In this document: in pieces, positions 48,922 through 63,376 of the stretch
Numbering within the stretch: position 1 is the stretch's first letter
How the letters are laid out: every line of letters starts with the position of its first letter
Assembly (NCBI RefSeq): GCF_000379765.1
Contig: NZ_KB903436.1
Coordinates: forward strand, 664 to 64,663
Direction: 5' to 3'
Origin: Flexithrix dorotheae DSM 6795
GTDB taxonomy: Bacteria > Bacteroidota > Bacteroidia > Cytophagales > Flammeovirgaceae
DNA length: 64,000 nt
Translations under genes and position numbers: made by a program
Notes under the pieces: generated by a model
What the model saw: only the letters and a program-made list of their open reading frames with translations
Database searches by the model: none
Told to the model about the DNA's origin: nothing

Positions 48922-49374
48922 TTAATTTTGGTAAGCTTCTTCTAATTCAGCCACAATAATTTTACTCATTTTCATCATTGCATTCACCACCTTTTTGGCT
49001 TTTTCAGCATTTGGGTCGTTGGATAGCCTAATCAGGATTTCTGGAATGATCTGCCAACGCACTCCGTATTTGTCCTGTAACCATCCACACATGGAGGCTT
49101 TACCACCGTCATTGATAAAAGTATTCCAGTAGTAATCTACCTCTTCCTGATCTTTACAGTCTACATAAAAGGAAATTGCATCATTGAAAGCATCATGTGG
49201 TCCGGCTTCCAGAATAGAAAAGCGTTGATTACATAACTCAAATGTGGTGACCATTGGCACTTGAGAGATAATTCTGGAATCAGGGAAAATATTAGTGTAG
49301 TATTCAGCTCCCTCTCGTCCATTGGTTTCAAACCAAAGAAAAGGGGTAATTTTGGGGTGATTAATTTTAGCCAT
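48922..49374 (-). CDS. PhnB-like VOC-superfamily protein
   Basis: About 150 residues with the glyoxalase/bleomycin-resistance (VOC) fold in the PhnB/3-demethylubiquinone-like subgroup: PFLWFETNGREGAEYYTNIF, FSILEAGPHDAFNDAISFYV and GWLQDKYGVRWQIIPE. Metal ligands typical of true glyoxalases are not all present. The start at 49374 (MAKINHP) leaves 2 bp after the preceding VOC gene; the longer start at 49395 would overlap it. Confidence 0.83.
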   Translation of the reverse strand: MAKINHPKITPFLWFETNGREGAEYYTNIFPDSRIISQVPMVTTFELCNQRFSILEAGPHDAFNDAISFYVDCKDQEEVDYYWNTFINDGGKASMCGWLQDKYGVRWQIIPEILIRLSNDPNAEKAKKVVNAMMKMSKIIVAELEEAYQN

Positions 49375-49376
49375 GA

Positions 49377-49814
49377 TTAGATTTTTTCTTCGCAATTAAA
49401 CATCCATTGAACACCATATTTATCTGTACAGGAACCAAAATAATCTCCCCAAAACATTTCAGCGAGTTCCATTGTAATCACTCCACCTTCAGAAAGTTCC
49501 TCAAAGAGTCTTTTTGTTTCTTTTCTGGTATCTGGCTGAAGATTGATACTCATATTATTTCCGAAATTCAGGTTGAAACCCATAGATTCCGGAGCATCCG
49601 TGCCCATGAGTATATGTCCTCCGGTAATCGGTAACATAATATGCATCACCAGGTTTTTATCTCCCTCTGCCAATGGAGGCATACCTTCTTGTGGTGGAGT
49701 ATCCTTAAATCTGGTGATTTCACCAATCAGATCAGTTTGAAATACCTTTTTATAGAAATTAAATGCTTCCTCTGTGTTTCGTGAAAAATTAAGATACGTA
49801 CTTACGCTTGCCAT
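49377..49814 (-). CDS. PhnB-like VOC-superfamily protein
   Basis: 145 residues, PhnB-type VOC fold: YLNFSRNTEEAFNFYKKVF, HIMLPITGGHILMGTD and MFWGDYFGSCTDKYGVQWM. It is a relative of the next VOC gene, and both share the KYGV-W-W terminal strand. The two may form a heterodimer or be a duplication. The gene follows the DoxX-like gene by 4 bp. Confidence 0.85.
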   Translation of the reverse strand: MASVSTYLNFSRNTEEAFNFYKKVFQTDLIGEITRFKDTPPQEGMPPLAEGDKNLVMHIMLPITGGHILMGTDAPESMGFNLNFGNNMSINLQPDTRKETKRLFEELSEGGVITMELAEMFWGDYFGSCTDKYGVQWMFNCEEKI

Positions 49815-50342: not shown

Positions 50343-51326
50343 ATGAAACACATCTCTATTCTTATCCCAAAAGGTCAATTTAGTATTGTCAATATTGCAG
50401 GGACTTTTCAAATCCTAAACTGGGCAAATGACATGTTTTTTCAACAAGCCAGAAAAAGACTGTTTGAAATTGAATTTGTTGGTCATCACAAACCTTCCAA
50501 TGACTCAAACGGGTTCTTCAGTGTAATGCCTTCCAAAACACTGGACCAGGTAGAAAAGACTGATTTAATTGTTGTTCCTGCAGTTCATGAGGATCATGCC
50601 AAAGCCATTGAAATGAATGAGAAAGTTATCAGTTGGATACGCCAGCAATACACCAATGGAGCTGAAATTGCTGCGTATTGTATCGGTGTATTTCTTTTAG
50701 CCGAAACCGGACTTTTGAATGGCAAAACATGTTCTACCCATTGGGGAGAAGCTGTACATTTGCAGGAAATGTTTCCAGAAATTAAAGTGCAATCTGAGAA
50801 GATCATTACCGAATGTGAAGGATTATACACAAGCGGAGGAGCTTATGCCTTTACCAATCTGGCCATATATCTGATCGAAAAGTACGGGGGAAGAGAACTG
50901 GCAATTCTGACTGCTAAGGCTTTTATGATTGATGTTGATAAAAATGATCAATCTCTCTTTGCCATGTTTATTGGGCAAAAACAACATCAGGATGAAATGG
51001 TGCTTGAGGTTCAGGAAATGATAGAAAAAGATTTTAAAGAACAGCTGAATGTAGAGCAAATAGCGAGAACAAAAGCCACTAACCGCAGAACACTAGAACG
51101 CAGGTTTAGAGCAGCTACAGGCAATTCAGTTATCCAATATCTACAGAGGGTCAGGATAGAATCTGCCAAAAAGTTGTTGGAGCGCGAAAATAGTAATATC
51201 ATGGACACTATGTTTTTAGTGGGCTACAGTGACAGCAAGGCCTTTCGGGAAGTATTCAGGAAACATGTGGGGATTAGCCCCTCCGAGTATCGAAAAAAGT
51301 TTGCGGCTGCGGTTTCACTGGGATAG
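50343..51326 (+). CDS. GlxA-type transcriptional regulator (DJ-1/PfpI domain plus AraC HTH)
   Basis: About 327 residues with an N-terminal class-I-glutamine-amidotransferase-like domain (~5-190), with AAYCIGVFLLAETGLLNG at the nucleophile-elbow position. A C-terminal AraC helix-turn-helix (~235-325) includes VEQIARTKATNRRTLERRF and MFLVGYSDSKAFREVFRKHV. ATG at 50343 is preferred to the TTG at 50331. Divergent from the DoxX/VOC genes, with an apparent two-turn direct repeat in the 140-bp gap. Confidence 0.9.
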   Translation: MKHISILIPKGQFSIVNIAGTFQILNWANDMFFQQARKRLFEIEFVGHHKPSNDSNGFFSVMPSKTLDQVEKTDLIVVPAVHEDHAKAIEMNEKVISWIRQQYTNGAEIAAYCIGVFLLAETGLLNGKTCSTHWGEAVHLQEMFPEIKVQSEKIITECEGLYTSGGAYAFTNLAIYLIEKYGGRELAILTAKAFMIDVDKNDQSLFAMFIGQKQHQDEMVLEVQEMIEKDFKEQLNVEQIARTKATNRRTLERRFRAATGNSVIQYLQRVRIESAKKLLERENSNIMDTMFLVGYSDSKAFREVFRKHVGISPSEYRKKFAAAVSLG

Positions 51327-51720
51327 AATGGACTAGAAAGATTTTACGTTTATTCCGCTGATAAATAACGCAAAACAGGAGCTACTGGATAAAATAGGCA
51401 GGATATACCCAGTAAATTGAATTGTAGATCATTCCCTTCAAATCTGTAGAAAGCTTTCCACAATCATGCTTTCATTGCCCCTGCTAATAAACTGTAAGCC
51501 CCTCATTTACAACCTTCTGGCAAATATCGATTGGGATTCCCGGCCATGGCATATTCTTTTCTTCAGTAATTGTAAATGATGATTTTAAATCATTTGACCC
51601 AAATTATTGGAACAGGAGCAAAATTGATGGAGATTTTTTTGAACTGACTTTTCCAGGTAGCTATTTTTTGAATTTGCGCATTCAATAAGTGAAGAATTCA
51701 ATCTCCAGGTTTGGGTATAA
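51327..51720. other. 394-bp intergenic region, no gene seen
   Basis: Between the GlxA-type gene and the first BON gene. AT-rich, with no convincing coding sequence, terminator or consensus promoter. It presumably carries the stress-module promoter. Confidence 0.4.
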
Positions 51721-53277
51721 ATGTTAAACTTTAAAGCCAAAGTTATGGAACCAGAAGATACATTAAAAAACACATTCAATCATATTATTCAGTTTATAAG
51801 GGAACATCCTCAAATATTTATCTTGTTAGTTTCCCTTTGTTTTGCTTTTTCCAGTGTTGCACAGCAACGGGAAATGGATGACGAACAAATAGTATTGGTT
51901 CTGGAATCTCAATTTGCAAAAAGTCAGGGGATTCCTGAAAACAATATTGATATTATTTCCGAAGACGGTATTGTTTCACTTTCCGGTCATGTCAATAATC
52001 TGCTGGTGAAAAGAGAAGCAAGAGAAGTAACCATGTCTATTCGTGGTGTAGTTGGGGTAATAGATAGAATGGAAGTGAAAAATAAAGTAGTTGCTGATGA
52101 TAAAATAAAGGAGAATATTAAAAGTGCAATTTCCAAGAATCCTGCAACCAAAAATTATAAAGTAAATATCAGTGTGAATGATGGAGTGGTCACCCTGGGG
52201 GGAAAAGTAGATTCATGGCAGGAAAAGGAACTTACTGAAATGTTGGCCGAAAAAGTAATTGGTGTAAGATCAATTGAGAATAACCTCATTTTTACTGCTA
52301 CAGCAGATAGATCAGATTTTGATTTAAAACAAGATATCTGGTATAATTTGAAATGGGATAGAAGAATTGATGAAAACCTTATTGAAATCAAAGTGAATGA
52401 TGGAGTAGTTTTTATTTCGGGTAAAGTTGGAAGTGCCTGGGAGAAAAACTGGGTAGGCCTGAAATCCTGGATCAATGGAGTAGAAAAAGTAGATGTCTCG
52501 GGTCTGAAAGTCCGGGAAAAGTATAGCCAGGATGAAATCAGAGAGGAAGTCATTACCATTGTGCCGGATACTGAAATCCGAAAAGCAGTAGAAAATGTAT
52601 TTCAAATCGATCCAAGAGTGAAACGGGAAAAAATAAAAATCACGGTAAAAAACGGTGAAGTTTTACTAAGTGGAAAGGTAAATAGTCTTCAGGCGAAAAA
52701 TGCCGCAGCAGATGATGCCAATAACATAGTCGGAGTATGGAAAGTGAATAATTTGCTTAAAGTACAGCCATCAATCATTCCCGATAATAAACAATTGGTA
52801 AGCGATGTAGAGTGGGTATTAAATCAAAACCCCTATCTGGAAGACATTGAAGTACACGTTTTTGCCGAAAATGGGAAAATTACTTTGCAGGGGGCAGTGG
52901 ATGCTCAATTTGAAGTTGACTTAGCGGAGGAACTGGCTATGGATGTCGATGGTGTCCTTTCTGTTCAAAATAACCTGATTGTGGATTCCAACCTGATGCC
53001 AAAGGATTTTACCTATCACAATTATTACAGGAGCTATATGCCCGGACCTTACCAGGTTTTAGGCATTAATGACAAAGAAATTAAAGATGACATTGAAGAA
53101 CAAATCTGGTGGTCGCCTTTTATAAATCCTGAAAATATTAAGGTAGAAGTAAACGAAGGTAGGGCTCTGCTTACCGGTAAAGTAAACTCAAGTCAGGAAA
53201 AGCAGTATGCCACCATCAATGCCCTTGAAGCGGGAGCCCTGGCAGTTGACAACAGGCTGAAAGTCAGCAAAAACTGA
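51721..53277 (+). CDS. Exported protein with six BON domains (first copy)
   Basis: 518 residues. A hydrophobic export segment (~31-48, IFILLVSLCFAFSSVAQQ) follows a rather long N-region; the Met at residue 9 is an alternative start. Six BON repeats follow at ~53-120, 126-192, 200-265, 284-348, 355-422 and 451-516, each with the DGVV-L-GKV-S-W strand-turn pattern. BON domains bind phospholipid or stabilise the envelope (OsmY, Kbp). It is paralogous to the protein at 56704. A 60-bp gap leads to the stress-protein gene. Confidence 0.88.
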   Translation: MLNFKAKVMEPEDTLKNTFNHIIQFIREHPQIFILLVSLCFAFSSVAQQREMDDEQIVLVLESQFAKSQGIPENNIDIISEDGIVSLSGHVNNLLVKREAREVTMSIRGVVGVIDRMEVKNKVVADDKIKENIKSAISKNPATKNYKVNISVNDGVVTLGGKVDSWQEKELTEMLAEKVIGVRSIENNLIFTATADRSDFDLKQDIWYNLKWDRRIDENLIEIKVNDGVVFISGKVGSAWEKNWVGLKSWINGVEKVDVSGLKVREKYSQDEIREEVITIVPDTEIRKAVENVFQIDPRVKREKIKITVKNGEVLLSGKVNSLQAKNAAADDANNIVGVWKVNNLLKVQPSIIPDNKQLVSDVEWVLNQNPYLEDIEVHVFAENGKITLQGAVDAQFEVDLAEELAMDVDGVLSVQNNLIVDSNLMPKDFTYHNYYRSYMPGPYQVLGINDKEIKDDIEEQIWWSPFINPENIKVEVNEGRALLTGKVNSSQEKQYATINALEAGALAVDNRLKVSKN

Positions 53278-53337
53278 TGTAAAGCATAACTGACTTTAAA
53301 CCAAAAAATTCAATAAAACCAAAACCTAAAAAAGAAA

Positions 53338-54198
53338 ATGGAAAAAGCAATTGTATATTTCGATCTCACAGATGAATCCAAAAAACTGGTGGAGTATGTG
53401 ATGCACCTGAAAAGGCTCATTCCCTTACAAATTCACCTGGTCTATAATCCCGTAATTTATGATTATGCCTTTTATCCGGTATCACCTGCAGGATTATATG
53501 ATCAATCTACATTTATTCCACCAATAACTGCCGATAAACAAGAACTGGAAGAAAGGATTCATGAATTTATAGATAATTCATCCTGTTGGGGAAAATCCGA
53601 ATTAAAAGAAAATTTAAAAATTGAAACGGGCGAATTGTTCAATGTCATTCAGGATTATAAAGATGAAGTAAATGCAACTTTTGTGATCATTCCTGAAATT
53701 GATGAACGAATCCTTTTGGAAAAGTTTTTCAACAATGAACAGTTTAAAATTATAGAAAAAGTAGATGTCCCTGTAATGGTAGTCCCAAGAGATTTCAAAT
53801 TTCAGCCCTTTAAATCCATAGTTTATGCTACAGATTTTCATAAGCGGGATAAAAAAGCCATACAGTTTTTATCCAGGCTGGCCATCCCTATAAATGCTCC
53901 AATTCATGTGGTGCACATAGCGGAATCTGAAAGTTCAGAAACCACTAAAAACATGGATAAGCTGCACAAAGAAGTTCAGGAACTCTTACAACATGATGCT
54001 AAATCCATAAATTTTGAATGTTTTGTGGGTGATCATGTCACGGCTGCCGTCCACCAGTTTGCACAAGAACGCGAGGCGGGAATAATAGCACTATTACAGC
54101 AGAAGGAAGGGTTTCTGGCCAGAGTACTGGGGCGAAGCACTACCGATAAAATGACGAAAAAAACGAATTTCCCCATTCTTGTTTTTAATAAAGATTAA
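53338..54198 (+). CDS. Tandem universal stress protein
   Basis: 286 residues with two Usp folds. The second (~155-286) is clearer: IVYATDFHKRDKKAIQFLSRL at its start and LLQQKEGFLARVLGRSTTDKM, with a partial ATP-loop G-x9-G-S/T. The first (~1-145) ends in DVPVMVVPRD. It probably senses nucleotide or stress state in the cytosol. It sits between a BON-protein gene and a baeRF gene at ~60-bp spacings, suggesting one operon. Confidence 0.83.
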   Translation: MEKAIVYFDLTDESKKLVEYVMHLKRLIPLQIHLVYNPVIYDYAFYPVSPAGLYDQSTFIPPITADKQELEERIHEFIDNSSCWGKSELKENLKIETGELFNVIQDYKDEVNATFVIIPEIDERILLEKFFNNEQFKIIEKVDVPVMVVPRDFKFQPFKSIVYATDFHKRDKKAIQFLSRLAIPINAPIHVVHIAESESSETTKNMDKLHKEVQELLQHDAKSINFECFVGDHVTAAVHQFAQEREAGIIALLQQKEGFLARVLGRSTTDKMTKKTNFPILVFNKD

Positions 54199-54260
54199 CC
54201 CGATTCAGTAAAATTTTATCCCAAAATTTATTGAATCTAATCAAAAATTATTTTAAAAAA

Positions 54261-55421
54261 ATGAATTTATTTAACAGAGAAGTATTTGAAAAACTTGCTG
54301 AAAAAGAAGAAGAAATTGCAGTCTCCTTATTTATTCCTACTACACGTGGTGGCCATGAAGTGTTAGAAGGAAAGGATGCCATCCATTTAAAAAATGAGCT
54401 GAGACAAGCCAAAAACCAATTGGTAGATATTTTTAAATTGACCGAACCGCAAGCCGAATCATTTTTAAAACCGGCTAGGAATTTAATGCGAAATGATGAA
54501 TTCTGGAGAGAACAAAGTGACGGCCTAGTCCTGTTTATTAGTGATAATGACATGAAGGATTTTTCCGTTCCGGTAAATTTCAGGCCTGAGGTTTATGTAT
54601 CCAACTATTTTTATCTAAGACCCCTGGTACCCATGGTCAACAAAAGAGAGAAATACTTCCTCTTGTTACTTAGCCAGAATCAAATTAAATTCTATGAATG
54701 TACCAAATATGCAATCACGGAGGTCATGATTAAAGATCTGGTTCCGGAGGGAATGCTGGAAGTAGTTGGGGAAGACTACAAGGAAAAAACATTGCAATCT
54801 CGTTCCGGACAGGGAGAATCAGGTGAAGCCATGTACCATGGACATAACGTAGCGAATGACAAGCACAATGAAGAACTGGAAAAATACATGCGTGCCATCG
54901 ATGAAGGATTAAATGAAATGCTCCATGATGAAAATGCCCCACTTGTAGTTTGTGCAGTTGATCATATATTTGCCGATTTCAAAAAGTATAGCAAATACAA
55001 CAATATTTTTCCAGAAAATATAAGTGGTAATCCCGAACACGAATCTATTCTGGAATTACATGAAAAGAGCGTAAATCTGCTAAAACCATTTTTTAATGAA
55101 GCACACCAACAGGCCTGGAAACAATTTGGGGAAAACGTACACCAGGAAAATACCTCCACAAGTATAGAAGAAATTCTGCCAAAGGCCATCAATGGCAGAG
55201 TAGAAACGCTTTTTGTAGGTAGTGGTTCGGACCGATATTTTGGAAAATACAGCCGGAAAAACAATACTATAACAAAGAACAAAATCCAATCTCCGGATAA
55301 TTATGAGTTAATCGACCTGGCTGCCAGAAAAACTATTGCTCAGGGAGGTAATGTGTATATTAAAGAAAAAGCAAACCTTTCTGGCCACGAACAAATCATG
55401 AATGCTTTCCTGCGGTATTAA
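54261..55421 (+). CDS. baeRF-family (bacterial eRF1-like) protein
   Basis: About 386 residues. The layout (SLFIPTTRGGHEVLEG start, DGLVLFISDN, VSNYFYLRPLVPMV, RYFGKY) matches the baeRF families related to archaeo-eukaryotic release factors aRF1/eRF1. Those are proposed to act on stalled ribosomes under stress. A central RSGQGESGEAMYHGHNVA (~181-198) lies where the release factors carry GGQ, but a true GGQ is absent. ATG at 54261 is preferred to the TTG at 54231. A strong terminator follows. The role is inferred from family, not shown by sequence. Confidence 0.75.
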   Translation: MNLFNREVFEKLAEKEEEIAVSLFIPTTRGGHEVLEGKDAIHLKNELRQAKNQLVDIFKLTEPQAESFLKPARNLMRNDEFWREQSDGLVLFISDNDMKDFSVPVNFRPEVYVSNYFYLRPLVPMVNKREKYFLLLLSQNQIKFYECTKYAITEVMIKDLVPEGMLEVVGEDYKEKTLQSRSGQGESGEAMYHGHNVANDKHNEELEKYMRAIDEGLNEMLHDENAPLVVCAVDHIFADFKKYSKYNNIFPENISGNPEHESILELHEKSVNLLKPFFNEAHQQAWKQFGENVHQENTSTSIEEILPKAINGRVETLFVGSGSDRYFGKYSRKNNTITKNKIQSPDNYELIDLAARKTIAQGGNVYIKEKANLSGHEQIMNAFLRY

Positions 55422-55460
55422 TCCGCAGCTTTCATAACCTGAATTTGATCTACATTTTTC

Positions 55461-55495
55461 AAAGGAATACGCATTATTGGGTATTCCTTTTTTTT
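55461..55495 (+). terminator. Intrinsic terminator of the BON-Usp-baeRF unit
   Basis: AAAGGAATAC (55461-55470) / GTATTCCTTT (55481-55490) with a 10-nt loop and a following T-run to 55495. Confidence 0.85.
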
Positions 55496-55861
55496 GTGAT
55501 TTCAAAAAAGCCCCCATTTAAGTTGTAGAATCACTTACATTTTATTGTAGATTTAATTCCTCAGTAAGTAAATAAAAATTATGATTTTATTTATTTTAAT
55601 TAATTGATTTACAGTTAATTACAGCTTTTAAAGCATATGAACCCCTTACGGGCATAGTTCTTCCTTTATTAATAGTAGCAACCTTTAAAAGCTTGACTAA
55701 CAAAAAAATAAAATCAATAAATCTGATTGTGAAATTATGCCTTTTTCCCACGAACAAAGGATTATTTCATATCTGAAAAAAATAATATCGAATAACTCTA
55801 ATACAATTTGAAGTCAGGGTTTCTCCCCACTTCAGTGTATGAAAATAAAACCATAAGCATT
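55496..55861. other. 366-bp intergenic region upstream of the OmpA gene
   Basis: Very AT-rich, no gene seen. It separates two transcription units of the stress module and must hold the promoter of the OmpA-BON unit, but I found no perfect TTG/TAnnTTTG pair. Confidence 0.35.
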
Positions 55862-56626
55862 ATGAAAAAGTCATTAATATTTACCATTGTAACAGGATTT
55901 ACCTTCCTTTTTTCAGGTTGTGTTTCAAAGAAAGTTTATGAAGCACAAGTAACGGAAAGCGTGAGTTTAAAACAGGAAAACAGGCGAATGGCCGAGAGGC
56001 TGGACAGCCTGGATCTGGCAAATCACGGATTACAAACTCAGGTAACCGCACTCACAGAATACGCCAGCAACAAGGCTATTGATCATATGAATGAAAAGCT
56101 TGAAAAGGAAAAAGAAGTAAATCGGCTCAGGTCCATGCTCCTAGAACAAAAAACCAGACTGCAGGGCCTTAAGTGGACAATTTCCACACTTTTATTGCCT
56201 TATCAGGAAATCAGTAACAGCACATTCATAAAAGATGGAATGTTATATATTTCGTTGGATGAAAGGTTACTTTTTCCCTCAAACAAAGCCAATCTGAATG
56301 GCTCTGGTAAAAAAGCACTAGATGCCATTTTGCCAACACTTTTCGCAGCAAATGATTTAAACATCATGGTTGTAGGACACACGGATAATTTACCAGTAAT
56401 TAATGGTCCTTACAAGGATAACTGGGAACTGAGTACGGCAAGAGCCAATGCAGTGGTTAGGTACCTCATGGAAAAAAGTAAAATCAATCCCGGTAGAATT
56501 ACTACAGCCGGTAAAAGCTTCCATGATCCAATCACACAAAATAATACAGTGGAAGGAAGAAGGGCAAACAGAAGAACTGAAATTGTGCTGATGCCCAAAA
56601 TGAATGAGGTACTCGATTTATTGTAG
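55862..56626 (+). CDS. OmpA-domain lipoprotein
   Basis: About 254 residues: lipobox (FLFSGC, Cys20), a coiled-coil region (~30-110, VSLKQENRRMAERLDSLDLA onward) and an OmpA C-terminal peptidoglycan-binding domain (~115-250) with VVGHTDNLPV, LSTARANAVVRYLMEK and the terminal RRANRRTEIVL. It anchors the outer membrane to peptidoglycan. The start at 55862 gives the lipoprotein signal; an upstream frame to 55808 adds only 18 unlikely residues. A 77-bp gap precedes the second BON gene. Confidence 0.88.
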   Translation: MKKSLIFTIVTGFTFLFSGCVSKKVYEAQVTESVSLKQENRRMAERLDSLDLANHGLQTQVTALTEYASNKAIDHMNEKLEKEKEVNRLRSMLLEQKTRLQGLKWTISTLLLPYQEISNSTFIKDGMLYISLDERLLFPSNKANLNGSGKKALDAILPTLFAANDLNIMVVGHTDNLPVINGPYKDNWELSTARANAVVRYLMEKSKINPGRITTAGKSFHDPITQNNTVEGRRANRRTEIVLMPKMNEVLDLL

Positions 56627-56703
56627 TGGAAAGGCCTCTACAACCTCCTCAGGGAATTTCATAGGTAAACTCTAAAAATACCAACACTTAAATAAAAAAA
56701 ATC

Positions 56704-58203
56704 ATGAAAACGATAAATAAAAAAAATTCGAACTTAAAACTGCTGATTGCCGGAATTATGGGATTCATTTTGCTCTCAGGCAGCGTTTTAGCACAGAAAG
56801 CTCAAAGAAAAATTAATGACGAAAATATAAAACTGGTGGTGAAATCAGAATTAATTTCTCACCGTGAAATAACCGGGTTTAACATAGATGTTAAATCTAC
56901 GGAAGGTATAGTCACTCTTGAAGGTAATAGTGATAATCTTTTGGAAAAAGAGCTTGCGGGAAATTATACCAAGTCGATTAAAGGCGTAAGAGGTGTAATT
57001 AACCTGATTGAGGTCAATCCAAAAGTTATTCCTGATACTGAAATTGAAAAAAATATTAATACCGCCTTGCTGAAAAATGCAGCCACTGAGTCTTTTGAAA
57101 TTGATGTTACTGCCGTAAACGGTCTGGTTACTCTGGCCGGTCAGGTAGATAGCTGGCAGGAAAAGAAGCTGGCCGAGAATGTGGCTAAAAGTATAATTGG
57201 TGTCCGTGGTGTATCTAATCATTTGATTTTTACACATCAAAATAAAAGATCCGACCAGGAAATCCTTGCTGATATTAAGGAAGCCCTGAAATGGGATGTC
57301 AGAGTGGATGATGCACTAATTGATGTAGAAGTCATTCAGGGAAATGTGAAGTTGTCTGGTGTAGTAGGAAGTGTGCCTGAAAAAGAATGGGCGGAACTGA
57401 TTTCATGGATTAATGGTGTACAACAAGTGGATGCCTCATCTCTTGAGGTAGATAAATGGTTCGACCGAAAAGCATTAAGAGAGGGGAAGTTTGCCAACGC
57501 CAGTGATGAAGCGATAAAAAAAGCCATTGAAGATGCCTTTGTGTACGACCCAAGAGTAAATTCCTTTGATCCGGGAGTGGTAGTAGAAAATGGGAAGGTG
57601 TTTTTACAGGGAAGTGTACCTAGTATCAGAGCTAAAATAGCCGCTCAGGAAACGGCTCAAAATATAGTTGGTGTATGGTCTGTAAAGAATTATCTAAAAG
57701 TAAGACCAGGTACCATTCCTGAAAACCTCGCGCTTATTTCTGATGTAAGGGACATGTTCGCCTTAGATCCTTTTTTAAGAGATGAAGCCATTGAAGTAAA
57801 AGTGAATTCCGGTATAGTGACCTTAACGGGAAATACATCCACTGAATACCTTAAGTTCAGGGCTTCTGAGAAAGTTTATGATATTAAAGGTGTTGTGACC
57901 GTGAAAAATAAGATTCAGGTGGGTGAAGAACCAAATGAATCGCTAAGCAGTAATAACTCAAATACGCTTGACCAGAAAACGCTGATAAATGATATTGAAA
58001 TTAAGGAGCAAATAGAAGATCAGCTTTGGTGGTCTCCTTTTGTAAATCAGGATGAAGTTCAGGTAGAGGTATTTAACGGCAAAGCCACACTTAAAGGAGT
58101 AGTGGATAGCCAAAGGGAAAAAACTTATGCCGCTATCAATGCATTGGAAGGCGGTGCCACTACGGTAATCAATCAATTGGAAGTGGAAAAAACAAATAAC
58201 TAA
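56704..58203 (+). CDS. Exported protein with six BON domains (second copy)
   Basis: 499 residues with a clear signal peptide (~10-31, ending VLAQKAQ) and six BON repeats in the same order as the protein at 51721. Each repeat begins with an acidic helix (NDENIKLVV, DTEIEKNIN, DQEILADIK, DEAIKKAIE, LALISDVRD, IEIKEQIED) and ends in a strand such as KGVVDSQREK. The last repeats of the two proteins share W-W-S-P-F, so they derive from a duplication of the whole gene. Cotranscribed with the OmpA lipoprotein gene and followed by a terminator. Confidence 0.88.
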   Translation: MKTINKKNSNLKLLIAGIMGFILLSGSVLAQKAQRKINDENIKLVVKSELISHREITGFNIDVKSTEGIVTLEGNSDNLLEKELAGNYTKSIKGVRGVINLIEVNPKVIPDTEIEKNINTALLKNAATESFEIDVTAVNGLVTLAGQVDSWQEKKLAENVAKSIIGVRGVSNHLIFTHQNKRSDQEILADIKEALKWDVRVDDALIDVEVIQGNVKLSGVVGSVPEKEWAELISWINGVQQVDASSLEVDKWFDRKALREGKFANASDEAIKKAIEDAFVYDPRVNSFDPGVVVENGKVFLQGSVPSIRAKIAAQETAQNIVGVWSVKNYLKVRPGTIPENLALISDVRDMFALDPFLRDEAIEVKVNSGIVTLTGNTSTEYLKFRASEKVYDIKGVVTVKNKIQVGEEPNESLSSNNSNTLDQKTLINDIEIKEQIEDQLWWSPFVNQDEVQVEVFNGKATLKGVVDSQREKTYAAINALEGGATTVINQLEVEKTNN

Positions 58204-58278
58204 AAAGCAGAATAGCTTAGTTTAAAAGAACCAAATTCAATGGTATTTGATTTGGGATTTCTAGTTGTAAAGTTGAAT

Positions 58279-58323
58279 GGGATGGGTCATGGCAAATGCT
58301 TTTGGCTCATCCCTCACTTTTTT
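58279..58323 (+). terminator. Intrinsic terminator of the OmpA-BON unit
   Basis: GGGATGGGTC (58279-58288) pairs with GGCTCATCCC (58304-58313) including two G-U pairs, then a T-run. Confidence 0.75.
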
Positions 58324-58718
58324 ATACTGAAGAAGAATTCCAAATATAATTCAGCAAACCCGGAATCATACATGCTTTATTTTAGGTAGTTTTTGATTTT
58401 TTAGGTTTAAAGGATTGCAAATCTCCAGGAGGAATAACTGGGAAAGTGTGGAATAATCACCAAAAAATTGTGGAGAAAAAGAAACAATTTTCTGGCATAG
58501 GGGAAAGTTGAATTTTATTTTATAATTATAAGTAATTGAAAATCAGTATATTACAAAATAATCTGTCTGTTTATAATATAAATTTAGAGTTGGTATAAAT
58601 TTTCTTATTAATAAAGCAACAACCTAAAAATCATCCATTTCTTATTTGAAGATAGAATGGAAAAGGATTTAAAAATTATATAAAAATCAGGATTATAACA
58701 CTAAAAATTTAAAGTAAG
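58324..58718. other. 395-bp intergenic region, no gene seen
   Basis: AT-rich stretch before the coiled-coil lipoprotein gene. No coding sequence recognised; probably a promoter and long leader. Confidence 0.4.
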
Positions 58719-59171
58719 ATGAAAAAGCTAAAATTGTTCAACATCGCCCTTTTGATCTCTGCAGGTTCATTTTTTTACTCATGTAATCAGGGACAAAGAT
58801 CTGAAAACTACGAAGAAAATGTAGAAACCACTGTAGAAGAAATTGATGAAGATTTCGAAAAACAGAAAGAAGCTCTGGAAAGAGATATTGAGAATAAAAT
58901 GGAGGAACTGGATAAGGAAATAAGCACCTGGGATGACAAAATAGAAAACTCAGGTGAAAAAGTCAGTGCCGAAATGAAAGAAGACTGGCAGGAAGTAAAA
59001 GCTGATATGGAGAAAACCAAAAATGATCTTGCCGCTGAACTTGATAAAGTAAAAAATAGCTCAAAAGAGACTTTCAACGATATAGAAAAAGAATTTCAAA
59101 AAACTTCCGAAAATATAGAAACCGAATTTGAAAAGTTCGGAAACAAAGTGGAAGAAGCATTTGAAGGATAA
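58719..59171 (+). CDS. Coiled-coil lipoprotein
   Basis: 150 residues: lipoprotein signal (SFFYSC, Cys22) followed by an almost uninterrupted, strongly acidic amphipathic helix (EEIDEDFEKQKEALERDIEN and onward) with an 11/7-residue periodicity, similar to apolipoprotein- or LEA-like stress proteins. It may scaffold the periplasm or bind membrane under stress. Its place next to BON, OmpA and PRC-barrel genes supports an envelope-stress role. No catalytic motif. Confidence 0.75.
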   Translation: MKKLKLFNIALLISAGSFFYSCNQGQRSENYEENVETTVEEIDEDFEKQKEALERDIENKMEELDKEISTWDDKIENSGEKVSAEMKEDWQEVKADMEKTKNDLAAELDKVKNSSKETFNDIEKEFQKTSENIETEFEKFGNKVEEAFEG

Positions 59172-59506
59172 TTTTGTTTCAGTTTAAGTTAATACAACAA
59201 ATTCTTTCAACCAGTAAAAATTCTTCAACTAGCCAATAAAACAACACATTCGGGCAGGATTCCCGTAAAACCGGAACTGCCTGAAAAACACTGCTAACTT
59301 AACTAGAAAACGTTCAACCAGCTAACTAAAACTAATGCTCCTCACATACTGAAAAATGTATGTTTTTAATACATCATGAAATGACAACTTAAAATCATAA
59401 TTTATCAATTTTCAGTTTGTAAGCATATAAAAGGCAGGTAATTACACATTACTTGCCTTTTTTTTAAAACATTTTTTTTAACCAATATAAATATAAAAAT
59501 AACAAG
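59172..59506 (+). other. Structured 335-bp gap with two terminators
   Basis: No gene seen. A hairpin GGCAG/CTGCC with inner TTCC/GGAA (59253-59281) is followed by a first small terminator (ACATAC/GTATGT plus T-run, 59344-59367) and by the stronger one at 59429-59465. The layout could be a structured 3' UTR or a small RNA. Confidence 0.4.
59429..59465 (+). terminator. Intrinsic terminator 40 bp before the PRC-barrel gene
   Basis: GGCAGGTAAT (59433-59442) / ATTACTTGCC (59448-59457) with flanking AAAA/TTTT pairs, 5-nt loop and T-run. Confidence 0.8.
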
Positions 59507-60010
59507 ATGACACCATATAAATTCACAAAAGCAAATGTGCTAAAAGATACAAAAGTATATTCTCCACAAAACCAGTTATTGGGTACGGTAAATGAGGTAG
59601 TAATCGATAATACCACAGGAAGAATAGCCTATGTGGTTATGGAATATTCCGAAGAAAATTTTAATAAATTATTTGCTATTCCATGGCAGGTATTTGCCTG
59701 GGATATGGTATCAGAAGGAAAAGCTATCCTGGATGTGAGTAAAGAAAAAATTAAAAATGCACCAGGATTTAACAAAACCCAATGGCCGGATTATCCTCAG
59801 GAAGAATTTCTGAATCAGGTGTATGTTTATTACAATAGCGATCCAGCCTTTAATCCGATAAATGATCCCGTTTATAAAACGAAAAATGCAGGCCTCGATA
59901 ACTCAGGAGAAGCTAAAACCATTGAAGAAGCAGGGTTTGATTCGAATAAAATTGAACGAACCGGAATGTCCAGAAATACTGCGAGAGAAAAATGGCTGAG
60001 CACCAATTAA
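59507..60010 (+). CDS. PRC-barrel domain protein
   Basis: 167 residues. An N-terminal PRC barrel (~8-75) has TKVYSPQNQLLGTVNEVVID, IAYVVMEYSE and FAIPWQVF, followed by an extended tail ending in SRNTAREKWLSTN. The family occurs in photosynthetic reaction-centre H subunits and stress proteins in non-phototrophs. It is a cytosolic candidate partner of the envelope-stress genes; promoterless distance (40 bp) from the preceding terminator suggests its own start nearby. Confidence 0.82.
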   Translation: MTPYKFTKANVLKDTKVYSPQNQLLGTVNEVVIDNTTGRIAYVVMEYSEENFNKLFAIPWQVFAWDMVSEGKAILDVSKEKIKNAPGFNKTQWPDYPQEEFLNQVYVYYNSDPAFNPINDPVYKTKNAGLDNSGEAKTIEEAGFDSNKIERTGMSRNTAREKWLSTN

Positions 60011-60134
60011 TCAAAGACATTAAGAGCTTGCTTAAAATTTAGGTTTTCAAGCCAAAACGTCCAGTTTTTCGTGAGGTTGCAAAAATGGGCGTTTGCAGCG
60101 AAACAGTTAAAATTTAAACATGCTCTAAATTAAT

Positions 60135-60160
60135 ATTACGGACCTCATTTGGTCCGTAAT
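60135..60160 (+). terminator. Hairpin after the PRC-barrel gene
   Basis: ATTACGGACC (60135-60144) / GGTCCGTAAT (60151-60160), perfect 10 bp with 6-nt loop, followed by TATTTT. Confidence 0.65.
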
Positions 60161-60407
60161 TATTTTAAGAAAGCAAAAATTCCCACCCGGAAACAATCCC
60201 ATCTACAGCGGTTCCTGCCCACATTCATTCTGTCTGTTCGTAAATTTCTTATCCTGTATAGCTGGTGCTACACTTATCCAGAAGCACCATTCAATTACTC
60301 ATGAAAAAACTTAACTTTATCTTTTCTTTTTTTAAGCTCGCATTTTCCCAGGAAATATCTAAAAGTTTAAAAATTTATTAGATTAGGGGAAAACAAACCC
60401 ACATCAA
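60161..60407. other. 247-bp gap before the sulfatase gene (397 bp counted from the PRC gene)
   Basis: No gene seen. With 60011-60134 it forms a 397-bp non-coding stretch between the PRC-barrel and sulfatase genes that holds the hairpin at 60135-60160. Confidence 0.35.
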
Positions 60408-61934
60408 TTGAAGAATTTTTTAATTACATATTTTTTATTATCCCTTTTAATATTTAGTAACTGTAATGAAAAGGGCACGGATCATAACACCCAGCCGGAA
60501 GAAAAAACAAATATCATTTTATTAATGGGAGATGACCATGGTTGGGATGAAACGGGGTACAACGGACACCCTTTTGTTAAAACACCTGTACTGGATGAAA
60601 TGGCCTCAAATGGTTTGAGATTTGACAGATTTTATTCGGGACATCCAAGCTGTTCTCCAACAAGAGGAAGCTTTATGACTGGAAGGCACCCTAATCGCTA
60701 CGGTACTTTTGCTCCCGGCTGGTCTATCAGGCCGGAGGAAATTACCATTGCCCATTTGGCTAAAAGTATGGGTTATGCCACAGGTCATTTTGGGAAATGG
60801 CATCTTGGGCCGGTAAAAAAAGCCTCCCCTACGAATCCTTCAAAAATGGGTTTTGAGGAATATCTTTCACATGATAACTTCTTTGAACTCAACCCGGTAT
60901 TCTCAAGAAACGGGGAAGATCCTCAAACGTTCGAAGGAGAGAGTTCTGAAGTAATTATTGATGAAACCATTCAGTTTATATCCAAAACAAATCAAAGTGC
61001 GCAACCTTTTATGGCAGTTGTCTGGTTTGGCTCCCCTCATGAACCTTACAGTGGACTGCCCGATGATTTAAAACTTTATGACAACCTTCCCGATAGCCTG
61101 GATAATGTAAAGGTAAAATTGACTTCAAATAAAACCGGAGAGCCCACCGAAAGACCTTTGGGAGAAGTTTTACGGGAACGCTATGCCGAAATCACGGCTA
61201 TGGACCGGGCTATTGGAAAATTACGGATCTATCTGAAAGAAAATAAGCTGGATGAAAATACAATTATATGGTATTGTGGAGATAATGGCACACCTAAAAG
61301 CGCTGCAAGAACTGGGCTGACCGTAAGAGGGGAAAAAGGACTGTTTTATGAAGGAGGGATCTTGGTACCCGGAGTAATGGAATGGCCTGCAATGATTAAA
61401 AAACCTGCTACTTCAAAGTCCATAGCGGTAACAAGTGATTTTTTACCGACCATAAATGAAATATTGGGCACCCAAATGCCAAACCGGCCAATAGACGGAA
61501 CTTCTTTATTACCGGTGATAAAAGCCCCTGAAACAGCCCGAAAGGAGCCGTTGTGCTTTTGGGGAATTAATGCCAATGATTTGGTACAGGATACTACTCC
61601 AGTATACATAGATTCAGAATTACAGGAAGGAACCACACCACTCGTGAAAAAGATGGGAAATCAATATACCCGCTCGTTTAAGAACTTTGTATATAACCAC
61701 ACCACTGAAGCACACTTTGGGGGAACCAGAGCCATTATGCAGGATAATTTTAAACTTATTATAGACGGAACTGAGCAGGATAATCTTACTGCAGAATTAT
61801 TTGATATTGAAAAGGATCGTGCAGAAACAACAAACATTGCCAGTTCCCATCCCGGGAAAGTTCAGGAGCTGAGTAAAGAGCTATTGAAATGGCAAAAATC
61901 TGTTTTAAACAGTCTGAAGGGCAATGATTATTAA
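60408..61934 (+). CDS. FGly-type sulfatase lipoprotein
   Basis: 508 residues: lipobox (LLIFSNC, Cys19), then the alkaline-phosphatase-like sulfatase domain with metal motif LLMGDDHGWDE (38-48) and the signature CSPTRGSFMTGR starting at Cys82. Cys-x-Pro-x-Arg marks maturation to formylglycine by an anaerobic or aerobic FGly-generating enzyme. GHFGKWHLG and YCGDNGTP are also conserved. It would desulfate a sulfated polysaccharide or small molecule in the periplasm, typical of marine Bacteroidota. The start is TTG; no in-frame ATG gives a signal peptide. Confidence 0.9.
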   Translation: MKNFLITYFLLSLLIFSNCNEKGTDHNTQPEEKTNIILLMGDDHGWDETGYNGHPFVKTPVLDEMASNGLRFDRFYSGHPSCSPTRGSFMTGRHPNRYGTFAPGWSIRPEEITIAHLAKSMGYATGHFGKWHLGPVKKASPTNPSKMGFEEYLSHDNFFELNPVFSRNGEDPQTFEGESSEVIIDETIQFISKTNQSAQPFMAVVWFGSPHEPYSGLPDDLKLYDNLPDSLDNVKVKLTSNKTGEPTERPLGEVLRERYAEITAMDRAIGKLRIYLKENKLDENTIIWYCGDNGTPKSAARTGLTVRGEKGLFYEGGILVPGVMEWPAMIKKPATSKSIAVTSDFLPTINEILGTQMPNRPIDGTSLLPVIKAPETARKEPLCFWGINANDLVQDTTPVYIDSELQEGTTPLVKKMGNQYTRSFKNFVYNHTTEAHFGGTRAIMQDNFKLIIDGTEQDNLTAELFDIEKDRAETTNIASSHPGKVQELSKELLKWQKSVLNSLKGNDY

Positions 61935-62002
61935 TACACAAACCCTATCAGACAGATAGAAAATTTTTCATACGTAAACCAAAAATTCTGAATGATAAAA
62001 CC

Positions 62003-62299
62003 ATGATACGGATAATTTATAGCTGGAAAGTGGAGCCGGAAAAATTGGAAACTTTCATCGAAACCTGGAAAAAAACTACTAATAAAATTCATGAGGAAGT
62101 GGAAGGAGCAAGAGGTAGTTTCATGTTACAGCATGAAAAAGATTCTACGGAAATAAAGACTGTTGCCAAATGGGATTCTCTGCAAGACTGGGAAGAATTT
62201 TGGCATGAGGGCAATCATAGCCAAATGGGGAAAATGCATGATTTGGGAAAACGTATCTCCGTAGAAATTTTTAAGGAAATTGAGGATTTCACAAAATGA
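62003..62299 (+). CDS. ABM-fold (antibiotic biosynthesis monooxygenase-like) small protein
   Basis: 98 residues with the ferredoxin-like dimeric alpha+beta pattern: MIRIIYSWKVEPEKLETFIE, the GARGSFMLQHEKD strand pair and WDSLQDWEEFW. The family includes haem-degrading and quinol monooxygenases, but most members are uncharacterised. It follows the sulfatase by 68 bp and is convergent with the next gene. Confidence 0.78.
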   Translation: MIRIIYSWKVEPEKLETFIETWKKTTNKIHEEVEGARGSFMLQHEKDSTEIKTVAKWDSLQDWEEFWHEGNHSQMGKMHDLGKRISVEIFKEIEDFTK

Positions 62300-62332: not shown

Positions 62333-63376
62333 TTACAGCGCCTCCAGTTTTTCTTCCAGTACTTCAGAATATTTTTCGGATAATCCCGCATAGCTTTGTA
62401 CTTTTTCTTTGCCTGGATTAAACTGCAAACTGGCCAATATGGGAAAGTGATCCGAACCAGTATGGGGAAGTCTCCTGATTCCAGCCAATAGGAAATTATT
62501 AGAATGAAAAATATGATCCAGTGGCCAACGGGCAAAAAAGTAATCCGCATGGAAGGTGTTAAAAAAGCCCCTACCCTTTCGAGGATCCAGAAGCCTGCTG
62601 ATTTTCTGGAACATTCGTGAGGTTTTCGACCAGGCTACATCATTCAAATCCCCGGCAATGATTACCGGATTTTTGGATCTCAATGCTTTTTTTCCAACCA
62701 AAATCAATTCTATATCACGCTCTGTAGACCTGTCATTTTCAGGTGGAATGGGTGGTGTGGGGTGTATCCCATAAAAATCTATCCATTGGCCTGATTGTAA
62801 TTGTATTTGGGCAAATATGGAAGGAATTCCTTTCTCTACTAAAAAATTAACCCTGGCATTTTGAATGGGCAATTTGCTATAAAATAATATCCCGTAAGTA
62901 TTTTCAAGAGGATATTCAATAAAATACGGATAATGGTCTTTCAAACCGGAAAGGGCTTTTTGCCATTTTTTATCTGTTTCGACCAACATCACGACATCAG
63001 GGTTTTCTCTTTCCACCAGATCAAGGGTTTTCTGGAACTTTTTGTTGTGCATATACACATTAAAAATTAAAAGACTGATCTGTTGGTCTTCATGTGATTC
63101 TTTAATCCATTTTGATTCCTTTTTTCCCAAAAAAGTATAGGGAAATATCTTTTTAATTTGGTAAAGCAAAGCAGCTGCAAGAAGCAGCACAAGAAAAACC
63201 ATTAAAGGTGAAATTTCCAAAACCAGGATTACACCTATCAGACATGCTGTTTTTATGAATAACAATTGGGGTCTTGGGAATTCCCATAAACGGAAAAACC
63301 AATGGTCTTTCTTGAAGAATGGTATAAATGTACCTATTCCAAAAATTAAGCTGGGGATGATTACTAACCATTTCAT
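62333..63376 (-). CDS. Membrane-anchored endonuclease/exonuclease/phosphatase-family protein
   Basis: 347 residues with two or three N-terminal hydrophobic segments (~1-75) and an EEP domain (~95-325). Its motifs are LIFNVYMHN, VVMLVETDK (catalytic Glu), GIHPTPP, IIAGDLNDVAW and TGSDHFPIL (terminal Asp-His). Such proteins hydrolyse phosphodiesters in nucleic acids or lipids on the outer face of the inner membrane or in the periplasm; the specific substrate is unknown. It follows the small membrane-protein gene by 61 bp. Confidence 0.85.
   Translation of the reverse strand: MKWLVIIPSLIFGIGTFIPFFKKDHWFFRLWEFPRPQLLFIKTACLIGVILVLEISPLMVFLVLLLAAALLYQIKKIFPYTFLGKKESKWIKESHEDQQISLLIFNVYMHNKKFQKTLDLVERENPDVVMLVETDKKWQKALSGLKDHYPYFIEYPLENTYGILFYSKLPIQNARVNFLVEKGIPSIFAQIQLQSGQWIDFYGIHPTPPIPPENDRSTERDIELILVGKKALRSKNPVIIAGDLNDVAWSKTSRMFQKISRLLDPRKGRGFFNTFHADYFFARWPLDHIFHSNNFLLAGIRRLPHTGSDHFPILASLQFNPGKEKVQSYAGLSEKYSEVLEEKLEAL

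Follow-up and report, generated by a model that had tools for sequence, protein, structure and literature searches.

Balon genes have been found in stress operons together with genes for OsmY (a BON protein), HdeD, Hsp20 and RaiA, according to the available portion of PMC10901736. RsbRST-type modules are on record from Bacteroidetes, and some stressosomes have been described with HisKA/REC modules downstream (available passages of PMC9237108). The window analysed here is a 64-kb stretch (64,000 nucleotides) of the genome of Flexithrix dorotheae DSM 6795, in which positions 51721–60010 carry genes for a ribosome factor, a universal stress protein (Usp) and several envelope proteins. To our knowledge, little has been learned so far about general stress control in Bacteroidota or about what switches on Balon-type hibernation beyond a few studied species. 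The reading preferred here, with a probability of about 0.6, is that of a general stress or growth-arrest island which would combine Balon-like ribosome parking with envelope support, possibly under stressosome control. The original prediction that a ribosome factor, Usp and envelope proteins are brought together in a stress gene group was supported. That the core idea is an undescribed system was not supported, Balon genes having already been reported in stress operons (available portion of PMC10901736).

Seven ORFs, all on the forward strand, were confirmed by an ORF check, with Pfam returning the domains first named from the letters alone. The gene for BON6a (51721–53277, 518 aa), the product of which carries six BON domains in tandem and is apparently exported, is followed after 60 nt by that for a tandem Usp (53338–54198, 286 aa) and then by the baeRF gene (54261–55421, 386 aa counted from ATG), with an intrinsic terminator-like hairpin on the same strand behind it (55461–55495, −15.1 kcal/mol, z −6.0, then a U run). 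The OmpA-domain lipoprotein gene (55862–56626) and, 77 nt past it, the gene for BON6b (56704–58203, 499 aa), a second apparently exported six-BON protein, are closed by another forward-strand hairpin of this kind (58278–58320, with an 81-nt stretch at −26.2 kcal/mol, z −3.6, then a U run). A small charged coiled-coil lipoprotein (58719–59171, 150 aa) and a PRC-barrel protein (59507–60010, 167 aa) complete the set; the gap between their genes holds a forward-strand terminator-like hairpin about 40 nt 5' of the PRC start (59429–59466, −16.2 kcal/mol, z −5.6), the stem of which is retained in a congener (G001), and 3' of the PRC gene lies a perfect 10-bp hairpin (60135–60160, z −5.0) that is terminator-like on both strands. 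Since these four hairpins, scored by folding against background and each followed by U-rich sequence, separate the genes, a division into four transcription units is likely, namely BON6a-Usp-baeRF, OmpA-BON6b, lipoprotein and PRC, and separate expression of the units is for the same reason possible. Of the four hairpins, the last alone was recovered by a separate consensus terminator scan, which gave seven sites against 6.6 expected in shuffles. An Rfam search of the window returned no match at gathering scores and a tRNA search of it found none.

As judged from sequence and modelled fold, the third gene encodes a Balon-like ribosome hibernation factor. The protein belongs to baeRF family 7 (PF18849, cut-off 27.2 bits), which it matches with 144 bits and E 4.8e-42, with baeRF families 3, 6, 8 and 11 of Pfam likewise above cut-off, and because of the alignment its start is probably ATG 54261 and not TTG 54231. 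A sequence profile matched Balon chain 8rd8_B over profile positions 6–385 of 385 (E 6.6e-38), and a single-sequence comparison with Balon (locus tag presumably AOC03_06830) gave E 1.4e-8. When the structure model (pLDDT 85) was submitted to Foldseek, ranks 1–6 were all ribosome-bound Balon chains, with VIA Z scores of 27.0–18.7 against 13.0 for the best listed release factor (eRF1), and the full-length three-domain fold could be aligned on 8rdw_B (Z 27.0, 353 residues, rmsd 6.0). Neither a GGQ nor a NIKS string occurs anywhere in the protein, which by this absence and its fold falls within the broad-sense Balon family (three-domain bacterial aeRF1 homologues of at least 300 aa). It lies outside Balon sensu stricto as defined by the NF052287 equivalog (132.3 bits against a cut-off of 330), and no dipeptide corresponding to the HP motif, with which Balon touches the decoding centre, is present in it when HP is taken as His-Pro; in the pairwise alignment the histidine pairs with that of Balon and the proline is lost. 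The available passages on Balon do not state that this motif is retained in all homologues.

It could be argued that this protein is a catalytic or non-catalytic rescue factor freeing stalled ribosomes, with the envelope proteins answering the same insult, as baeRFs have been proposed for both rescue and shutdown (Burroughs and Aravind, available part of PMC6514570) and the fold is shared with Pelota/Dom34. However, the lack of GGQ and the far better match to Balon structures than to Dom34/Pelota (Z 27.0 vs 11.6) make this very unlikely. Since the factor is Balon-like, ribosome parking, probably in the A site, is likelier than the stalled-translation response first proposed, which is corrected in this respect. 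For a member of the broad-sense Balon family, contacts with the ribosomal A site, EF-Tu and bL27 would be predicted.

The two six-BON proteins are 44% identical to each other and each contains six BON stretches (Pfam E 1.3e-77 for BON6a and 1.4e-81 for BON6b), all six domains of either protein being above the PF04972 cut-off in a search of the 9.54-Mb draft genome, in which 12 of the 12 BON domains found belong to this pair. Both begin with a hydrophobic segment resembling an export signal. The long-BON family profile matches OsmY (8rjx, 4.1e-22) and DolP/YraP (7a2d, 1.8e-17), the phospholipid binding of DolP being taken from the title of the PDB entry; with 109.2 and 128.6 bits against a cut-off of 174, the two proteins fall below the OsmY equivalog NF007858. 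An AlphaFold2 model of BON6b from three sequences, of medium quality at pLDDT 69, shows six BON-like units. BON pairs and secretion-ring proteins are among its PDB matches, although whole-model TM values are low (at most 0.14 for the seven matches at E ≤0.001). Our impression is that six-BON proteins form a little-described size class, and a literature search found no paper about them by title.

Seven other long-BON loci were found, five with six BON domains and two with five. A Usp gene adjoins the long-BON gene or lies no more than 1.6 kb downstream at three of them (twice in genome G201, once in G421), a baeRF gene lies 92 nt away at one (locus L045), and neither is nearby at the remaining three; a BON gene is beside or near baeRF at L045, L044 and L047. 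These neighbourhoods, together with the placing of BON6a in one unit with Usp and baeRF, argue against the view that the six-BON pair and the OmpA lipoprotein form a dedicated outer-membrane or periplasmic scaffold to which the cytosolic genes are incidental neighbours. Such a scaffold would agree with OmpA and BON6b sharing a unit across a 77-nt gap, with the confinement of all BON domains found in the genome to this place and with the profile match to DolP, and is considered unlikely overall.

Among the other genes, Usp matches its Pfam family in two stretches (E 8.6e-18) and has paralogues of 39–41% identity elsewhere in the genome. The OmpA-domain lipoprotein (Pfam OmpA, E 6.4e-19), the start of which was refined from the sequence to ATG 55862, is probably peptidoglycan-binding. 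In the 150-aa protein a hydrophobic stretch at the N-terminus, which ends in SC, is followed by a charged helical body, and we read it as a putative lipoprotein; its Pfam matches were to generic coiled-coil models, V-SNARE among them just at its cut-off, and its best NCBIfam match, the sll1863-family stress protein, was slightly under cut-off (32.1 vs 35 bits). Its orthologue in the congener (E 1.1e-78) is accompanied by one of the PRC protein (Pfam PRC, E 6.2e-10) with 74% identity. Further right, on the reverse strand, an endonuclease/exonuclease/phosphatase-fold (EEP) protein with N-terminal hydrophobic stretches is encoded (62333–63376; Exo_endo_phos, E 1.1e-35; orthologue at L180:2828-3871, E 1.6e-194), and is a probable member of the island because its order is kept in the congener.

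In that congener the order lipoprotein-PRC-EEP-membrane protein-M50-MscS-Dps-kinase is preserved, with RsbR-S-T on another contig; this assembly (84% complete) gave no baeRF and no six-BON match. In a different genus of the same family (G004), genes for PRC, Dps, an RsbRD_N-kinase, a lipoprotein (judged by eye, with no sequence match to that of the window), DUF2383, baeRF, MscS, a receiver and Usp lie within 7.5 kb. Here the RsbRD sensor domain forms part of a fusion with a histidine kinase, and only two genes lie between the kinase gene and the Balon-like one. At the thresholds used, this 8-Mb genome has its sole PRC, baeRF and Usp matches in a stretch of 7.4 kb, for which a simple uniform model gives a probability of about 3e-6. 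At the Winogradskyella locus L047 a three-BON gene is found 196 nt 5' of baeRF and Usp 3.75 kb 3', all within 7 kb. Due to these two cases the linkage seems non-random, and the conserved linkage expected of the group held in part, with sub-sets recurring and the full gene set absent from all 70 other baeRF loci examined.

Within 10 kb of baeRF at 34 less redundant loci, BON was found at three, Usp at two, PRC at two, HPF at three, MscS at seven and OmpA at none, some loci ending at contig ends and the profiles of the neighbour genes being built from few sequences, some taken from the counted loci; with so few neighbours, most of these baeRF genes are located elsewhere. The 34 comprise 21 of 57 named loci and 13 others, 36 near-duplicate named loci (mostly Pontibacter) being left out; when all 70 were recounted, L047 was added for both BON and Usp and L038 for HPF, and MscS was near baeRF at 38, mostly in Pontibacter. 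No strong Pfam enrichment was seen at the 34 loci when 133 genes up to two away from baeRF were compared with 117 genes five to six away; among the 25 commonest families, MscS counted four near against at most one far and BON two, while Usp did not rank among those of the near set and counted two in the far set. A contig scan with a single protein as query found no relative.

A rival reading is that the locus is a storage place for horizontally acquired genes, in which independent stress genes, each with its own regulation, accumulated by gene gain and formed no module. This agrees with the four transcription units, with the absence of the full set from the 70 other baeRF loci, with the presence of baeRF in four and of a full-length six-BON gene in one of 37 close relatives, and with a gene order that varies among G000, G004 and G008. 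Evidence against it comes from the second genus, where baeRF, Usp, PRC, MscS and Dps are clustered, from the colinear right half in the congener and from the repeated association of long-BON genes with Usp, or of BON, baeRF and Usp together at L047. We regard it as possible, with well under even odds.

The putative stress or growth-arrest island extends past the window. Genes for MscS, Dps and an M50 protease lie within about 27 kb right of the window, as do a stressosome operon and the genes for a bacteriophytochrome, for heme oxygenase and for a sigma-54 response regulator. One locus there (L188) contains MscS, a Dps-type ferritin, M50-CBS, the stressosome genes, a HATPase-HisKA kinase and a receiver protein, and another (L222) a phytochrome kinase, the sigma-54 response regulator, heme oxygenase and DUF4142. 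The stressosome genes encode, in order, RsbRD_N-STAS, STAS, an RsbT-like HATPase (HATPase_c_2) and HATPase-SpoIIE, followed by the kinase, which is the composition of an RsbRST stressosome, and G011, G021 and G032 have homologues arranged in this order too. The seven window genes probably represent the left arm of this larger island on contig C7, and the likely sensor module sits right of the window.

Two motifs are shared by the regions upstream of the units and both occur 5' of unit 2 (55574–55694, forward strand); as regulatory elements they are suggestive only. Exact copies of AAATNATGATTTTA precede units 1, 2 (at 55576) and 4, and five of 100 window shuffles reached as many matches at one mismatch. 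Two 14-mers with one free position anywhere were common to three of the four upstream regions (none in 200 shuffles), and one with a fixed free position (reached by one of 300 shuffles); at 12 and 10 bases the observed count was reached by 13 and 144 of 300 shuffles, respectively, the motif length having been picked after the sequence was seen. The 16-mer has seven exact places in the genome, two at the island and five away from evident stress genes, and at one mismatch 27 matches vs 18 for a reversed control. The second motif, TTAATA-N-CAACC-N-AAAA, precedes units 2 (at 55669), 3 and 4; three of its 14 distinct genome-wide places are at the island, the other 11 seeming unrelated, and it is as frequent as its reversed control (19 and 19 matches). 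With a stricter 20-mer form, its gap fixed at four bases, the island copies were absent from the genome matches. No sigma-54-like site was detected in 51200–60500 at the score threshold used. Two TGGCAC..TTGC strings, identical in G000 and G001, were rejected as sigma-54 sites by their position within the MscS coding sequence; they are also misspaced, with 11 and not 10 bases between GG and GC.

It is suspected that on sensing a stress signal the cell would make these proteins for its protection. Ribosomes would be parked by the Balon-like factor, which would enter the ribosomal A site, probably jointly with RaiA/HPF encoded elsewhere in the genome, where a profile search gave a single HPF match (contig C80). 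The two secreted six-BON proteins and the OmpA lipoprotein may steady the envelope, with the tandem Usp, the coiled-coil lipoprotein and the PRC protein assisting, while of the proteins encoded right of the window MscS would lower turgor and Dps would protect DNA and iron. Control would most likely be exerted by the RsbR-RsbS-RsbT-SpoIIE-kinase operon and by response regulators, among them a sigma-54 activator, all encoded about 11–31 kb right of the PRC gene. More tentatively, and with the odds against it, a stressosome-gated dormancy in Bacteroidota can be proposed, in which an RsbRST/two-component sensor, possibly with a phytochrome as well, would co-induce ribosome parking and an unusual six-BON/OmpA envelope brace. 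If true, translation arrest and envelope hardening would be induced together from one island. The occurrence of a Balon-like gene as a neighbour of the six-BON pair and of a stressosome in one island makes hibernation control testable.

A literature search, thin in its coverage of subscription papers, found no title or abstract start describing this gene set; the parts are each of a known kind and the arrangement looks new. The Balon-like protein resembles Balon of Psychrobacter urativorans and Msmeg1130/Rv2629 in full-length three-domain similarity of sequence and fold without GGQ/NIKS, and differs in scoring far under the equivalog cut-off (132 vs 330 bits) and in its replaced His-Pro motif. 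As has been reported for other Balon genes (available portion of PMC10901736), its gene shares a stress operon with a neighbouring BON (OsmY-type) gene; its linked genes are those for Usp and a six-BON protein and not that for RaiA. With the baeRF-HPF neighbourhoods (Burroughs and Aravind 2019, available part of PMC6514570) it has the superfamily and the translation-shutdown theme in common, the HPF gene here being on a different contig (C80). BON6a and BON6b carry BON domains on apparently exported proteins as do the periplasmic OsmY and DolP (YraP), but have six in place of two, occur as two paralogous copies and fall below the OsmY equivalog cut-off. The nearby operon shares with the minimal Gram-negative RsbRST(X) stressosome the order RsbR-S-T followed by a SpoIIE-type phosphatase and kinase, and differs from it in having an RsbRD_N sensor instead of a globin, a phosphatase with its own HATPase domain, and a place in an island alongside genes for a Balon-like factor, six-BON proteins, Dps and MscS.

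The region 51721-60010 contains seven genes, all on the plus strand, which were found by ORF reading and Pfam to carry the domains listed in the original prediction: a six-BON protein (BON6a), a tandem Usp protein and a baeRF protein (54261-55421), followed by an OmpA lipoprotein, a second six-BON protein (BON6b), a coiled-coil lipoprotein of 150 aa and a PRC-barrel protein. On folding, the intergenic gaps showed four hairpins with U-rich sequence 3' of each (z of -6.0, -3.6, -5.6 and -5.0), and the genes therefore likely form four transcription units, namely BON6a-Usp-baeRF, OmpA-BON6b, the lipoprotein and PRC (units 1 to 4). The hairpin ahead of the PRC gene ends approximately 40 nt from its start codon with the stem kept in the congener (G001), which would allow partial read-through into PRC from the lipoprotein unit. 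An exact AAATNATGATTTTA was also detected at 51574 (+), 55576 (+) and 59390 (-), upstream of units 1, 2 and 4, a recurrence that is unusual against shuffles; none of its remaining genomic copies lies at an evident stress gene. There was also an AT-rich stretch 3' of the PRC gene (60010-60130) with partial inverted symmetry, AGAGCTTG...CATGCTCT, perhaps a small mobile element or a repeat.

The baeRF protein was assigned by Pfam to baeRF family 7. A profile built from 29 sequences (this protein and 28 relatives) had one convincing match among PDB sequences, over its full length, to 8rd8_B (E 6.6e-38; 1.4e-8 with the single sequence), a chain labeled "Methyl-accepting chemotaxis protein" in an entry whose title gives the hibernation factor Balon. 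The AlphaFold2 model (pLDDT 85) had six Balon-ribosome chains as its best six Foldseek matches, and VIA-align likewise placed six Balon chains on top (Z 27.0 to 18.7), ahead of eRF1 (Z 13.0) and Dom34 (Z 11.6). Neither GGQ nor NIKS was found in the sequence. On the basis of the modeled fold, the protein probably works like Balon. However, its score of 132 lies below the 330-bit cut-off of the NCBIfam equivalog for strict Balon and the HP dipeptide of Balon is not retained; together with the fold matches, this indicates that it is probably a member of the broad Balon/baeRF family, outside Balon sensu stricto. The single RaiA/HPF match in the genome is on another contig and its product is a possible partner of the Balon-like factor.

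All 12 BON domains found in the 9.54-Mb draft genome sit in BON6a and BON6b, paralogues of 44% identity. A long-BON profile of eight proteins, two of them five-BON, matches OsmY, DolP/YraP and BonA. Long-BON matches (at least 390 of 499 query residues covered, E 1e-10 or better in phylum genomes) were present in four of 394 other genomes of the phylum (G201 twice, G237, G421 and G406) and in one of 37 close relatives (G008). With locus L045 these make seven outside loci, five with six BON domains and two (G406, L045) with five. A Usp gene adjoins the long-BON gene or lies within 1.6 kb downstream at three of the seven (G201 twice, G421), baeRF lies 92 nt away at L045, and neither is nearby at G237, G406 and G008.

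Homologues of baeRF were found in 4/37 close relatives and 100/394 other phylum genomes (E 1e-10 or better for the 394). Within 10 kb of baeRF, MscS was found at 38, BON at four, HPF at four, Usp at three and PRC at two of all 70 loci (7, 3, 3, 2 and 2 of 34 chosen loci, respectively), with OmpA at none of either set. From these counts, and from the absence of the complete set at all 70 other loci, it follows that the seven genes are not widely conserved as an operon. The conserved linkage sought around baeRF was borne out in partial sets only; just two of the 70 loci, L047 and L122, have at least two of BON, Usp, PRC and OmpA. In L047 (Winogradskyella), baeRF is preceded at 196 nt by a three-BON gene and followed at 3.75 kb by a Usp gene. 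L122, from another genus within the family (G004), is a stress island encoding a sigma-54 regulator, PRC, Dps, an RsbRD_N-HisKA kinase, a lipoprotein (judged by eye, without sequence match to that of the window), DUF2383, baeRF, MscS, a receiver protein and Usp. The only PRC, baeRF and Usp matches of G004 at the thresholds used all lie within 7,426 bp, for which the chance is approximately 3e-6 under a simple uniform model of independent placement in 8.0 Mb.

It should also be noted that the Winogradskyella contig (L047:9137-15759) has two baeRF loci, L044 and L047, each accompanied by a three-BON gene no more than 1.2 kb away, and a YtxH-like gene (by eye) near the L047 baeRF besides Usp. In Psychroflexus (L039:7294-9706) and G089 (L123:6392-8840), baeRF follows LigD-type DNA end-joining genes, known from domain totals and allotted to these loci by eye, which is a different stress association of baeRF. 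A small protein of the window (48922-49395) has relatives (E 4e-37, 1e-35) just after the baeRF genes of Anaerolineaceae (L060) and Chloroflexi (L059) loci; it is probably 3-demethylubiquinone-9 3-methyltransferase-like, a label carried by two genes that neighbour baeRF. A second stress unit of the same genome (L178, C24:1712-5640) contains a Usp 41% identical to that of the window, two regulator-like genes and one Gre/Rnk-like gene, the latter three labeled by eye.

The stress island extends rightward beyond the window (C7:664-64663): C7:64001-84000 (L188) encodes an M50-CBS protease, MscS, Dps and a formate/nitrite transporter family protein. On its minus strand are RsbRD_N-STAS, STAS, HATPase_c_2, HATPase-SpoIIE and HATPase-HisKA-HATPase kinase genes with a receiver protein upstream, that is, an RsbR-RsbS-RsbT-SpoIIE-kinase stressosome operon and separate receiver protein (L188:7478-11446 and L188:12061-12519; C7 ~71.5-76.5 kb). 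Homologues of this operon occur in identical order in G011, G021 and G032. The congener keeps the order lipoprotein, PRC, endonuclease/exonuclease/phosphatase-fold protein (62333-63376, minus strand, in the window), membrane protein, M50, MscS, Dps and kinase end, with RsbR-S-T and the receiver protein on a separate contig; between PRC and the phosphatase-fold gene, the congener has no evident equivalent of the sulfatase and the small gene at 60408-62299. With 420 bp between the start of its contig and the lipoprotein gene, the BON/Usp/baeRF arm would fall beyond the contig end, and no baeRF or six-BON match was detected in this draft (84% complete). One short contig of a third genus (G008) holds PRC, a sigma-54 regulator, an MscS-like protein (by eye), a receiver, a similar kinase and M50. 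Further right, C7:84001-96000 (L222) encodes a heme oxygenase, a bacteriophytochrome histidine kinase and a sigma-54 response regulator near the stressosome (L222:971-7389, C7 ~85-91 kb), and a DUF4142 protein; light input into the stress island via these genes is possible.

Steadying the envelope is a role ascribed to OsmY, DolP and OmpA-type proteins in other bacteria. In the most likely scheme, the stressosome and kinases would sense stress and, via intermediate steps, induce the four units, whereupon the Balon-like factor would park ribosomes and, by analogy, the six-BON proteins and OmpA lipoprotein may steady the envelope, with Usp, Dps and MscS as the remaining parts of a growth-arrest kit. 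The evidence for this scheme is of anatomy, fold and linkage only. In a V. vulnificus stressosome mutant, a ribosome hibernation protein was raised in stationary phase, according to PMC9237108; this may serve as a distant precedent for a stressosome-hibernation link, with a sign opposite to simple activation.

The literature search found no description of one island combining a stressosome with twin six-BON genes and a Balon-like gene. The seven genes had been proposed as an undescribed system linking stalled translation with envelope support, a claim of novelty that finds no support as to its core idea, since Balon genes within stress operons, OsmY among the members, are already reported in PMC10901736. 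Linkage of baeRF and HPF (PMC6514570) and RsbRSTX modules in Bacteroidetes (PMC9237108) have likewise been published.
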